From: Kaistella gelatinilytica
GTDB lineage: Bacteria > Bacteroidota > Bacteroidia > Flavobacteriales > Weeksellaceae
Direction: 5' to 3'
DNA: 64,000 nt
Assembly: GCF_015679325.1 (NCBI RefSeq)
Contig: NZ_JADPVI010000002.1
Span: forward strand, 672,798 to 736,797
Shown: piece by piece, positions 46,257-50,369 of the stretch
Layout of the letters: each line of letters starts with the position of its first letter
Numbering within the stretch: position 1 is the stretch's first letter
The notes under the pieces: generated by a model
The model's input: only the letters and a program-made list of their open reading frames with translations
Told to the model about the DNA's origin: nothing
The model's database searches: none
Made by a program: the position numbers and the translations under genes

Positions 46257-46264
46257 TACTTTTG
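46257..46264 (+). promoter_or_regulatory. Bacteroidota -7 box (TACTTTTG) for the lysA leader transcript
   Basis: An exact TAnnTTTG match predicts a start near 46271, 22 nt before the leader ORF and about 180 nt before lysA. No -33 TTTG is visible. Confidence 0.6.
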
Positions 46265-46292
46265 AAAAAAATTTCGAAGAGAAAATAAAAAT

Positions 46293-46370
46293 ATGATCAT
46301 CTCAAAATCTATAAAACAAGTTGCTTCTAAGGGAAAAAAGTTTTTCTCTGAGGATAATTTCGTGGATTAA
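46293..46370 (+). CDS. Putative 25-residue lysine-rich leader peptide of lysA
   Basis: The short ORF encodes MIISKSIKQVASKGKKFFSEDNFVD, with five lysines in 25 residues and three clustered at positions 13, 15 and 16. It lies between a predicted promoter and a terminator hairpin, directly upstream of the last gene of lysine synthesis. The bases AAGAGC (46369-46374, over the stop codon) can pair with GCTCTT (46405-46410) in the terminator stem and loop. That gives the alternative fold needed for attenuation. It could still be a chance ORF in AT-rich DNA. Confidence 0.5.
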   Translation: MIISKSIKQVASKGKKFFSEDNFVD

Positions 46371-46398
46371 GAGCTGTAATCTTAGATAATCAACAATC

Positions 46399-46428
46399 AA
46401 GCATGCTCTTTCCGAGTGTGCTTTTTTT
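46399..46428 (+). terminator. Terminator hairpin in the lysA leader (attenuator)
   Basis: AAGCATGCTC pairs with GAGTGTGCTT (10 bp including two G-U pairs, 5-nt loop) and runs into T7. It lies between the leader ORF and the lysA ATG at 46450. Confidence 0.7.
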
Positions 46429-46449
46429 AATTTTAAAACAAATAATAAG

Positions 46450-47649
46450 ATGACCGATAAAGATTTACTGAAAATTGCCCACCAATTTGGCACGCCAACT
46501 TACGTTTACGATGCTGAATCGATTAAAACGCAGTACGAAAAACTAACTTCTTCATTTCATAAAAGCACCCGTTTTTTTTATGCGTGTAAAGCACTTTCCA
46601 ACATCAATATTTTAAAATTTGTGAACCGACTGGGTGGAAGTTTAGATTGCGTTTCCATTAATGAAGTAAAACTGGGAATTAAAGCAGGTTTCGAATCAAA
46701 AAGGATACTTTTCACGCCAAATTGCGTTGATCTGGCCGAAATTGAAGAAGCAATGTCTTTAAAAGTTCACATCAATATTGACAACATTTCGATCCTGGAA
46801 CAGTTTGGAAACAAGTACGGAAATTCTTATCCGATTTTTGTCAGAATTAATCCCCACATTTTTGCTGGCGGAAATTATAAGATCTCAACCGGTCATATCG
46901 ATTCTAAATTCGGAATTTCTATTCACCAGCTTCGTCACATCGAACGCGTGATGAATTCAACCAACATCAATGTTGAAGGACTTCACATGCATACGGGAAG
47001 CGAAATTAAAGATCCCGATGTTTTTCTGCAGGGTTTAGATATCATGTTTGAACTGGCAGAAAAATTTCCGAATTTAAAATATCTGGACATGGGAAGTGGT
47101 TTCAAAGTCCCTTACCAGGAAGGCGATCTGGAAACCGATGTGAAAGTTTTGGGTAAAAAAGTGGAGAAAGCCGTTGCAGAATTTTCTAAAATTTCCCGGA
47201 AAAAGTTTGAACTCTGGTTTGAACCGGGTAAGTTTTTAGTAAGTAAAAGCGGTCATCTTCTTGTAAAAACAAATGTCATCAAACACACGACTGCCACAAC
47301 TTTCGCCGGAATTAATTCGGGTTTTAATCATATGATCCGACCGATGTTTTACGATTCTTATCATATTATCGAAAATCTTTCAAACCCAAAAGGTAACGAA
47401 AGAATTTACACGGTTGTGGGAAACATCTGTGAAACCGACACTTTCGCGTGGGACAGAAAATTAAATGAAGTGCATGAAGGCGATATTTTGGTATTTCGGA
47501 ACGCGGGAGCTTATGGCTATGAGATGAGTTCAAACTTTAACTCAAGATTGAAACCTGCAGAAGTTCTGTTTATCGACGGAAAAGCGCATTTGATAAGAAC
47601 ACGCGATGAGTTTGAAGATCTGTTGAGAAACCAAATTGAAGTCTTGTAA
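46450..47649 (+). CDS. lysA: Diaminopimelate decarboxylase
   Basis: This 399-residue PLP enzyme removes CO2 from meso-diaminopimelate to make lysine. The PLP lysine is K47 (FFYACKALSN). Also visible are the phosphate-binding GGSLDCVS and MGSGFKVPY segments, the EPGKFLV motif, and the substrate Cys in GNICETDTFA, with GAYGYEMSSNFNSR near the end. Length is typical of the Bacteroidota type. It lies behind a putative attenuator and is followed one base later by the first TonB-C-like gene. Confidence 0.95.
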   Translation: MTDKDLLKIAHQFGTPTYVYDAESIKTQYEKLTSSFHKSTRFFYACKALSNINILKFVNRLGGSLDCVSINEVKLGIKAGFESKRILFTPNCVDLAEIEEAMSLKVHINIDNISILEQFGNKYGNSYPIFVRINPHIFAGGNYKISTGHIDSKFGISIHQLRHIERVMNSTNINVEGLHMHTGSEIKDPDVFLQGLDIMFELAEKFPNLKYLDMGSGFKVPYQEGDLETDVKVLGKKVEKAVAEFSKISRKKFELWFEPGKFLVSKSGHLLVKTNVIKHTTATTFAGINSGFNHMIRPMFYDSYHIIENLSNPKGNERIYTVVGNICETDTFAWDRKLNEVHEGDILVFRNAGAYGYEMSSNFNSRLKPAEVLFIDGKAHLIRTRDEFEDLLRNQIEVL

Positions 47650-47650
47650 A

Positions 47651-48067
47651 ATGATCAGAAAATTTTGCCTTTTATTTCTTATTATTTCTTCTTTTGCATT
47701 CGGTCAAACAGAAAATAAAACGGAACAACCCAAAATGATTTACACCGAAAAAGCTAAGTTTCCCGGCGGTGAAGAAGATTTTCGCGCAGAATTTCATAAA
47801 ATGGTAAACGGTTACATCGATTTGCGAAAATATGCCGTGAACGGAACATTTTATTTTACATTTAATATCGATGTTAATGGGAAAATTAAAGATCTCAACA
47901 TTGTTCCCAAAGTTAAAAATAGTAACATGTTCATTGATGATATGATGTTTGCGATGAAGAAAATAAAAACCAAGTGGAAACCGGCTTTGCAAAATGATCA
48001 GCCTGTAGAATCCCGATACATTTTAAGTGTAAATTTCATTACTGATCATTTTGATCATGGCGATTAA
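47651..48067 (+). CDS. TonB-C-like secreted protein, array copy 1
   Basis: This 138-residue protein starts at the ATG one base after the lysA stop. A signal peptide (cleavage after FAFGQ) is followed by a TonB-C-type fold: FPGGEEDFRAEF, a TFYFTFNIDVNGKIKDLNIVPKV hairpin, a helix (FIDDMMFAMKKIK) and KWKPALQNDQPVESRYILSVNF. There is no anchor or Pro-rich region, so it is not an energy transducer itself. It would be free in the periplasm or secreted. The role is unknown. Confidence 0.78.
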   Translation: MIRKFCLLFLIISSFAFGQTENKTEQPKMIYTEKAKFPGGEEDFRAEFHKMVNGYIDLRKYAVNGTFYFTFNIDVNGKIKDLNIVPKVKNSNMFIDDMMFAMKKIKTKWKPALQNDQPVESRYILSVNFITDHFDHGD

Positions 48068-48129
48068 AAACGCCTGCAACGCTTTCTTTTTAAATCAAAA
48101 TTGAGTAACTTTATTGAAAATTCTGTACA

Positions 48130-48612
48130 ATGAAAAAGATCTTTCTATTTTTAATTTTTGCCTTTACTTATAGCAATGCTCAATATTTAGTTGAAGACAA
48201 CGACATTTCTGACAACACGAAAGAAGTCGGCAGACAAACGGTTTCCTACGATTTAAACAACCCGCTGGAATTCTATCGTTTAAAATGTTATAATGCAATT
48301 TATGCACAATTTCCCGGGGGCGAAAATGCTTTCAAGCAAAAACTTTTTCTCAATATGAAAAGTGATCTTGATAACAGCTTTTATTCGGTTAATGGAACTT
48401 TTGAATTGATCATCACCATCAATAAATCCGGAAATATGCAAAGCTTTAAGCTTAATCCAGAAGTACAAAACAGCAATTTATTGAAACGCGATCTGGAACT
48501 GGCTTTGCGGAAAATGAATCCAAAATTTACGCCTGCTACTTGCGACGGAGTTCCCATAGAATCTAAAATCAGGCAGAAAATAAATTTCCGAACAGACAAT
48601 TTTGATATTTAA
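48130..48612 (+). CDS. TonB-C-like secreted protein, array copy 2
   Basis: This 160-residue paralog of the preceding gene has a signal peptide (cleavage after YSNAQ). Matching blocks are FPGGENAFKQKL, the FYSVNGTFELIITINKSGNMQSF hairpin, a helix (LKRDLELALRKM) and FTPATCDGVPIESKIRQKINF. A strong terminator follows at 48626, so copies 1-2 and copies 3-4 are probably separate transcripts. Confidence 0.78.
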   Translation: MKKIFLFLIFAFTYSNAQYLVEDNDISDNTKEVGRQTVSYDLNNPLEFYRLKCYNAIYAQFPGGENAFKQKLFLNMKSDLDNSFYSVNGTFELIITINKSGNMQSFKLNPEVQNSNLLKRDLELALRKMNPKFTPATCDGVPIESKIRQKINFRTDNFDI

Positions 48613-48625
48613 TACTCATAAAATT

Positions 48626-48655
48626 AAAACTTTGTAAAATCTACAAAGTTTTTTT
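48626..48655 (+). terminator. Terminator inside the TonB-C-like array
   Basis: AAAACTTTGTA pairs with TACAAAGTTTT (11 bp, 5-nt loop) followed by a T run, between copies 2 and 3. Confidence 0.85.
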
Positions 48656-48673
48656 ATATTTAGAAAAAAATTG

Positions 48674-49387
48674 ATGAGGTTTCTTTACATTCTATTATTT
48701 CTAAATATTTTCGTTAATGGGCAGAAATTCGCAGTGTTCCCTGCTAATCAACATAGTTACTTAGGTGGCGACGAAATGTTCTACAAAGATTTTCAGAAAA
48801 TTTTAATTGCGAAAAACATGAAACCTTGCGAGAATAAAAAAGAACTTTTTCGTGCGTTAATTTTAGTAAATGAAGATGAAACTGCATCACTTTACGAATC
48901 AGAAAATTTCCCGGAACAGATCAGCAAATGCAGTGAAGAACTTACCAAAGAAGTTCTAAAAAACATGAATGGTTTTATCGCCGCAAAAATTAATGGAGAG
49001 TTAAAAGCTGCAGTCGCTCATTATTATATTTTCCCAGACGCTTTTTTTGAAAATTTTAAAGAAGGTTACACTCCAGAAAAATTTACAGAACTTCCTGTTT
49101 TTGAAGGCGGAATAAATGGTTTCAGAAATGAAGTATCTAAAAAAATTGATACTTCCGGTTTTTACGTGAAAGGTTCGGGAAAAGCAACATTAATTGTTCG
49201 ATTCCTTGTCAATGAAGAAGGCGAAATAGTTAATGTAAATCTGGAAAATACATCTGGACTTAAAGAATACGATGAGATGGTTATCTCATCCATTCAATCC
49301 CTCAAGAAGAAATGGATACCCGCAAAAGTTCATGGAATACCAGTTAAATACAGGTTTAGAATGCCGATCAGTTTGATGAAAGATTAA
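48674..49387 (+). CDS. TonB-C-like secreted protein with N-terminal extra domain, array copy 3
   Basis: This 237-residue protein starts at the ATG at 48674; a TTG one codon earlier is not needed. After a signal peptide (near IFVNGQ) come an extra domain of about 110 residues and then a TonB-C-type domain (about 140-237: FEGGINGFRNEV, ATLIVRFLVNEEGEIVNVNL, KKKWIPAKVHGIPVKYRFRMPI). It is a clear paralog of copy 4 over its full length. Both share YxGGxExxYKDF, a Cys near PCxNKxE and NEDxxxS. Confidence 0.78.
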   Translation: MRFLYILLFLNIFVNGQKFAVFPANQHSYLGGDEMFYKDFQKILIAKNMKPCENKKELFRALILVNEDETASLYESENFPEQISKCSEELTKEVLKNMNGFIAAKINGELKAAVAHYYIFPDAFFENFKEGYTPEKFTELPVFEGGINGFRNEVSKKIDTSGFYVKGSGKATLIVRFLVNEEGEIVNVNLENTSGLKEYDEMVISSIQSLKKKWIPAKVHGIPVKYRFRMPISLMKD

Positions 49388-49471
49388 GGTTTTATTAAAA
49401 TTGATGAAAAAGATCTAAAAAGATTTTCACGAAGTTTTTAAATTAAAAATTTCAAACTTGAACCAACAAAC

Positions 49472-49519
49472 ATGAAAGTTTCAGCTTTCTACTTGCTATT
49501 TATAACAGCAACACCTTGA
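49472..49519 (+). other. Possible signal-peptide remnant in the 256-bp gap between copies 3 and 4
   Basis: A 15-codon ORF (MKVSAFYLLFITATP, then stop) looks like the start of an exported protein. The rest of 49388-49643 is AT-rich, and I see no complete gene or strong hairpin. It may be debris of a lost array copy or chance. Confidence 0.25.
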
Positions 49520-49643
49520 AAAAGGCAAAACATAAAGCAACTGATTTTAAAGAATTTACATCCAAAAGTCCATCAAAAAAAAATTATTTTAGATTTACCC
49601 TTCCGTTAAGTTTTTTCAATATATAATTTGAAATTCCCTATTT

Positions 49644-50369
49644 ATGAAAAAAATTTATTTTCTAATTTTCTTTTTCCCTTTAATGATCTCTGCTCAAATA
49701 CTGGAGTATTTTCCTAATTATCAGGTTCCATATATTGGCGGTTACGAAGCATATTACAAAGATTTTCACGATATTATCGTTGAGAAAAATTTAGAACCTT
49801 GCTCAAATAAAGACGAGTTTTATCAGCTTAAATTGCTGATCAATGAAGATAAATCAGTGAGTTTTGTAAAAGACCACAATGAACAAAATATTGCGAAAAA
49901 TAAATGTGCTTATACACTCGCGAGAGAAGTTGCGAAGTCTCAGAAAAACTGGAATGCTGCAACTGTTGACGGCGTCCCAAAAGCTGCGGTTGCGACATTT
50001 ATAATTTTTCCCGCAGATCTTTTTGAAAATTATCAGGATGGATATCTTCCGAAATTTTCTTTCCCTTCTTACGGAAATTACAAAAATAATGGCGTCGCAG
50101 AATTTAGAAAAGGAATTGTAAACCGAATTGATGTTAGAGGTTTTGACTGGAATGATCGATTCAATATCATTGCTGAATTTATTATTACCAAAGAAGGAAA
50201 AATTGAAAATATTGTAATGCTCAAATCATCTTCTATGATCGAATTTGACAAACGAATCGTTTACGGAATTCAAAGTACAAAAAAGATGTGGAAATCTGCA
50301 ACTGTCAATGGAAAACCAGTGGATTACAGATATCGGTTAACTTTGAACGCGACTACAGATCAAGAATAA
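49644..50369 (+). CDS. TonB-C-like secreted protein with N-terminal extra domain, array copy 4
   Basis: This 241-residue protein is a full-length paralog of copy 3. It has a signal peptide (cleavage after MISAQ), the N-terminal domain with YIGGYEAYYKDF and PCSNKDE, and a TonB-C-type domain (FRKGIVNRIDVRGF, IIAEFIITKEGKIENIVML, KKMWKSATVNGKPVDYRYRL). The function is unknown. The paralogs differ widely in sequence, suggesting an old duplication with diversification. Confidence 0.78.
   Translation: MKKIYFLIFFFPLMISAQILEYFPNYQVPYIGGYEAYYKDFHDIIVEKNLEPCSNKDEFYQLKLLINEDKSVSFVKDHNEQNIAKNKCAYTLAREVAKSQKNWNAATVDGVPKAAVATFIIFPADLFENYQDGYLPKFSFPSYGNYKNNGVAEFRKGIVNRIDVRGFDWNDRFNIIAEFIITKEGKIENIVMLKSSSMIEFDKRIVYGIQSTKKMWKSATVNGKPVDYRYRLTLNATTDQE

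Follow-up and report, generated by a model that had tools for sequence, protein, structure and literature searches.

Transcription attenuation by leader peptides has been described in the open-licence literature for Trp, His, Leu/Ile/Val, Thr, and Phe, with candidates for Cys. In the classic attenuators (trpL, hisL, thrL, leuL, ilv, and pheL), a short ORF carries many codons for the pathway product and has its stop codon beside the antiterminator arm; the 1:2, 2:3, and 3:4 helices exclude one another, and an intrinsic terminator closely precedes the biosynthetic gene. For lysine genes, the textbook mode of control is a riboswitch, the L-box. In Actinobacteria, a comparative study assigned lysine to L-box riboswitches, and assigned histidine, threonine, and phenylalanine to attenuators (PMC1262725). 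No attenuator or leader peptide for lysine turned up in a search of the open-licence literature, in line with a preliminary description of the locus reported here, whose author knew of no such attenuator in Bacteroidota. To our knowledge, mRNA-level regulation in this phylum has been little studied.

We analyzed a window of 64 000 nucleotides (the whole stretch of DNA under study) from Kaistella gelatinilytica (Weeksellaceae), in which lysA (diaminopimelate decarboxylase; 46450–47649, + strand; TIGR01048, E = 1.8e-109, 366 bits against a cut-off of 297.9) follows a leader that shares the features of the classic attenuators listed above, although its 1:2 helix is only partly supported. This leader is, very probably, a leader-peptide attenuator of transcription, mediated by the ribosome, through which the supply of charged lysyl-tRNA governs how much lysA is transcribed. 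Unlike the classic attenuators, it is specific for lysine, occurs in Bacteroidota, has a single gene as its target, carries its Lys codons spread out rather than in one run, and has a candidate 1:2 helix that reaches the start of the ORF; it has no sequence match to the Rfam families Trp_leader, His_leader, Leu_leader, or Thr_leader. Lysine specificity is probably new for a leader-peptide attenuator. It would add an amino acid to this mode of control and extend the mechanism in Bacteroidota, with a predicted family of ∼130 genomes. As a sole target lysA is sensible, because the step its product catalyzes is the only one in the diaminopimelate pathway devoted to lysine alone, diaminopimelate itself being required for the cell wall.

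All features of the leader lie on the + strand, downstream of a gene for a DnaQ-type exonuclease; the nearest relative of the window's lysA is that of Kaistella jeonii (98% identical). The leader begins with a -7 promoter box of the Bacteroidota type (TAnnTTTG; TACTTTTG, 46257–46264), and 45 of 46 unique leaders have such a box 16–29 nt 5′ of their start, compared with 2% of shuffles. A scan for sigma-70-type promoters gave no excess over shuffles, and this promoter type was rejected as the wrong one. The ORF MIISKSIKQVASKGKKFFSEDNFVD (46293–46370) has 25 codons, with Lys at positions 5, 8, 13, 15, and 16, and its TAA stop codon (46368–46370) falls in the region of the AAGAGC motif (46369–46374). 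Segment 1, AAUCUAU (codons 5–7; 46306–46312), is the 5′ arm of a putative competing 1:2 helix whose 3′ arm, GUGGAUU (46362–46368), ends on the U that opens the stop codon. Between these arms, an internal hairpin, P1 (AGGGAAAA...UUUUCUCU; 46330–46349), covers codons 13–19 and thus spans Lys codons 13–16. Segment 2, AAGAGC plus UGU (AAGAGCUGU; 46369–46377), starts inside the stop codon and is the 5′ arm of the antiterminator; its partner, segment 3, GCA(U)GCUCUU (46401–46410), is also the 5′ arm of the intrinsic terminator (46399–46428; z = −2.45), which consists of a 10-bp hairpin with some G-U pairs (46399–46423) and a T7 tract (46422–46428). The order given in the preliminary description (-7 box, 25-residue ORF with five Lys, 10-bp terminator with T7, lysA) is thus present throughout, as is the pairing of AAGAGC over the leader stop codon with GCUCUU in the terminator: the window's 2:3 duplex reaches −10.2 kcal/mol compared with −5.8 ± 2.3 kcal/mol in shuffles, of which a fraction of 0.045 do as well.

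With this layout, transcription would start just 3′ of the -7 box, and a ribosome would load on the 25-codon leader. When lysine is ample, the ribosome would reach the stop codon and cover segment 2, the terminator hairpin could form, and RNA polymerase would halt before lysA. When lysine is scarce, the ribosome would stall on a Lys codon (codons 5–16 here, up to 20 in relatives) and open the helix at the ORF start, so that segment 2 could pair with GCUCUU of segment 3 and the terminator could not form; lysA would then be transcribed. Translation, stalling, termination, and the response to lysine are predictions from sequence. The amino acid whose codons are enriched in the ORF is also the one that the lysA product makes.

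The upstream regions of 110 lysA loci, drawn from genomes of the genus and from named genomes, were compared. In 46 unique leader peptides, Lys makes up 27% of residues, and AAA or AAG accounts for 0.269 of triplets in frame compared with 0.139 and 0.167 off frame. Among codons with a single difference between similar ORFs, 370 of 667 changes (55%) are synonymous in frame, compared with 156 of 691 (23%) and 63 of 773 (8%) in the other two frames. By this substitution pattern, the leader ORF is coding. Lysine is retained at fixed places: the 23 Kaistella-type ORFs have it at codons 8 (22 ORFs), 13 (22), 15 (23), 16 (23), and 20 (22). Each of these codons is AAA in some ORFs and AAG in others, and residues 2–4 and 21–25 vary freely. 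Among the Kaistella-type ORFs, that of the window alone has Glu in place of Lys at codon 20, which leaves it with slightly less Lys than its relatives.

Leaders of Kaistella run to 25 codons with the shared core KGKKxFSK, and those of Chryseobacterium and Epilithonimonas have 23 codons that read MQNFKQxKTGKKGAVKFSKVWNI or a close variant. In 39 unique ORFs of the latter type, G10, K11, K12, G13, F17, K19, V20, W21, and N22 are invariant, and at the codon level (L056–L110) GTT, TGG, and AAT for V20, W21, and N22, as well as AAG at 12 and 19, are invariant or nearly so. The invariance of V20, W21, and N22 is more than codon counting alone needs. Conservation that extends so far past Lys speaks for an arrest-peptide switch similar to TnaC, in which the nascent Lys-rich peptide would sense, inside the ribosome, lysine, diaminopimelate, or some other metabolite and cause a stall at a defined site, with the terminator and antiterminator reading the stall. 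We regard such a switch as improbable: Lys persists across genera whose peptides differ freely at the N-terminus and in the last residues, and the RNA helices can account for part of the C-terminal conservation. A combination, in which one peptide would carry control codons and also, as a nascent-chain sensor of lysine, diaminopimelate, or the lysyl-tRNA state, halt the ribosome at a set site, seems to us similarly doubtful; if true, lysine control here would join codon-based attenuation and arrest peptide.

The alternative structures of the proposed attenuator covary across relatives. In alignment A1, which comprises 25 leaders, the terminator (3:4) keeps all eight consensus pairs in 25 of 25 leaders, with both-sided changes in two pairs, and its covariation (0.420) exceeds that of shuffles (0.246; 0 of 500 as high). 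The antiterminator (2:3) is paired in 89.4% of cells compared with 86.9 ± 0.6% in shuffles, and its covariation is 0.205 compared with 0.166 (again 0 of 500 as high). Because the shuffles leave sequence relatedness in for both helices, these covariation values, like the energies given here, are not to be read as probabilities. Shifting the antiterminator partner by 1–3 columns lowers pairing to 34–62%, and one covarying 2:3 pair is C-G in Kaistella and U-A or U-G in Chryseobacterium. Across 48 leaders, the 2:3 duplex averages −10.7 kcal/mol compared with −6.7 kcal/mol in shuffles (mean z = −2.05), and the 1:2 helix, which is weak at equilibrium, averages −10.0 compared with −7.5 kcal/mol (mean z = −1.14). 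In Kaistella, the 1:2 helix joins AAUCUAU (ORF nt 14–20) to GUGGAUU (nt 70–76), and one leader (L023) carries a compensatory change from A15-U75 to U15-A75, through Lys5 to Asn and Asp25 to Glu. The Epilithonimonas helix brings together AUGCAA, at the start codon, and UUGCGU, 3′ of the stop codon, and both sides have changed in L171, from AUGCAA:UUGCGU to AUGCCA:UGGCGU. Classic attenuation logic with lysine specificity, as put forward in the preliminary description, is therefore supported by the conservation of Lys codons, the synonymous swaps among them, and compensatory changes in the stems.

Hairpin P1 has five consensus pairs, three of them with both-sided changes, and in Chryseobacterium and Epilithonimonas leaders an AAGG lies on either side of it. 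Conserved RNA with a covarying internal hairpin is also what would be expected if the leader bound lysine or another metabolite directly and the ORF were incidental, and lysine genes are known L-box targets that, like the lysA leader, place the choice between terminator and antiterminator in the mRNA leader. However, an aptamer would need neither the frame-specific codon evolution nor the Lys codon swaps, and this leader has no match to the L-box model and carries a coding ORF with conserved Lys codons in place of an aptamer. An Rfam search of the leader returned no family at the gathering threshold and no lysine riboswitch (RF00168) at either the gathering or the relaxed threshold; the relaxed matches (MicC, 6A, rimP leader, L20 leader, and others) scored far below gathering, at chance level, and were rejected. 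We therefore consider a riboswitch very unlikely. As a speculation within the attenuator reading, P1 may pause the polymerase or the ribosome.

We modeled the predicted switch with a partition function in which a ribosome masks ∼30 nt, an equilibrium treatment that ignores kinetics. The probability of 2:3 pairing, P(2:3), averages 0.62–0.98 over 20 Kaistella-type leaders with the A site on codons 2–22 and 0.25–0.55 on the last four positions; for 21 Chryseobacterium-type leaders, the mean is 0.83–0.98 up to codon 20 and 0.21–0.46 beyond. Since 4 or 5 codons remain between the last Lys codon and the stop codon in 45 of 48 leaders, the Lys codons lie in the zone of predicted antitermination and the Lys-free tail in that of predicted termination. 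The antiterminator is predicted to be exclusive with the terminator, and a ribosome that has reached the stop codon to mask its 5′ arm; this holds only partially in two divergent leaders (L152 and L153), for which the model gives 2:3 pairing solely while the first codons are occupied, and in the window leader. In the latter, P(2:3) recovers at the last two ribosome positions (0.85 and 0.90), so its full-translation state is not cleanly off. The ribosome-free model still favors the antiterminator in many leaders (mean 0.70–0.88), and the 1:2 protector is therefore weak at equilibrium. The switch had been noted as a stall on the Lys codons at 46329–46340 that frees AAGAGC, which a ribosome at the stop codon would cover; the fold model agrees with both states, but the control zone is wider than those codons, taking in every Lys codon as far as codon 20, and a putative third helix (1:2) would compete by joining the start of the ORF to the region of the stop codon.

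A covariance model (R1) built on alignment A1 was searched against 246 Weeksellaceae genomes, and matched 131 of them at E ≤ 0.01, weak matches included. The weak matches (E = 8e-4 to 1e-2; L141–L149) are terminators behind unrelated genes and were rejected as leaders. Strong matches (E below 1e-6) lie 13–22 nt 5′ of lysA wherever lysA coordinates were at hand, as judged by eye, the lone exception being a match that ends at a contig border (G166). Nearly all lysA transcripts must therefore cross the terminator. This near-fixed distance, seen in ∼90 genomes, also bears on whether the ORF, which is conserved as a protein, could be an independent small protein gene whose own terminator merely happens to precede lysA, or a constitutive leader without a regulatory role. 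Either is highly improbable, given that the terminator leaves no room for a second promoter before lysA and that the covarying antiterminator overlaps the stop codon.

The attenuator inferred here is confined to some Weeksellaceae. At least eight genera of the family retain its ORF, Lys codons, antiterminator, and terminator immediately 5′ of lysA. The alignment of leaders from relatives proposed in the preliminary description thus yields a conserved Lys-rich ORF with compensatory stem changes, where loss of the ORF or its Lys codons would have counted against the idea. Divergent genera (L151, L152, L153, L154, and L169) follow the same plan with very different peptides, among them MKTVYASKKGMKKGSKKFSKKPV (9 Lys), MPTLSSKQIKISKKGIKPFSKDFVLS, MSAVVTFKKVSAKGKKQFSKGISVA, and MNAILKIKSTSSKGKKHFPKAKKWSYSKELQ. 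In the upstream lysA regions examined, the leader is missing from 13 of 36 Kaistella, some Chryseobacterium, and many other Weeksellaceae genera, and none was found in the lysA upstream regions sampled from other families of the order (L203–L218). Several of the leaderless relatives (including L004, L005, L006, and L011, as well as L079, L082, and L089) have a TAnnTTTG-like box shortly before lysA, suggesting that control was lost or replaced repeatedly. On the lysA gene tree, leader presence and absence are clustered and require ∼16 changes, at least five of them by well-supported branches, counts that are off by one as the window locus (L114) was labelled leaderless under a rule that required Lys at codon 20. 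Repeated loss is thus part of the distribution of the attenuator. In one Chryseobacterium genome (G286; L189 and L190), the lysA match is in two pieces, with in-frame TAG codons in the second, although the leader is intact.

A second candidate leader of this kind occurs in the same genome. On contig C1 (L219:1324–1368), a His leader peptide (MKNTIALFHHHHLI) and a terminator (AAACCGTCTGAACAGAGACGGTTTTTTTTT) stand directly before hisG (∼386602), in what looks like a histidine attenuator; the hisG leader has no Rfam match at the gathering level. Like the lysA leader, it combines a TAnnTTTG-type promoter, a short ORF with codons for the product, and an intrinsic terminator before a biosynthetic gene, but its ORF is shorter and its four His codons form one compact run. 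Its presence suggests that leaders with product codons are probably used in this lineage. As a further operon to set beside that of hisG as a control, ilvD (TIGR00110) was rejected, as the gene is absent from this genome (99.9% complete), and branched-chain amino acid synthesis is therefore probably missing. Despite lacking ilvD, the genome keeps its lysine and histidine genes. Directly after lysA, at 47636–50369 on the + strand, lie four tandem ORFs (143, 160, 238, and 241 aa) with similar C-termini (KKKWxPA..GxPV.xR), which are possibly paralogous TonB C-terminal-like proteins.
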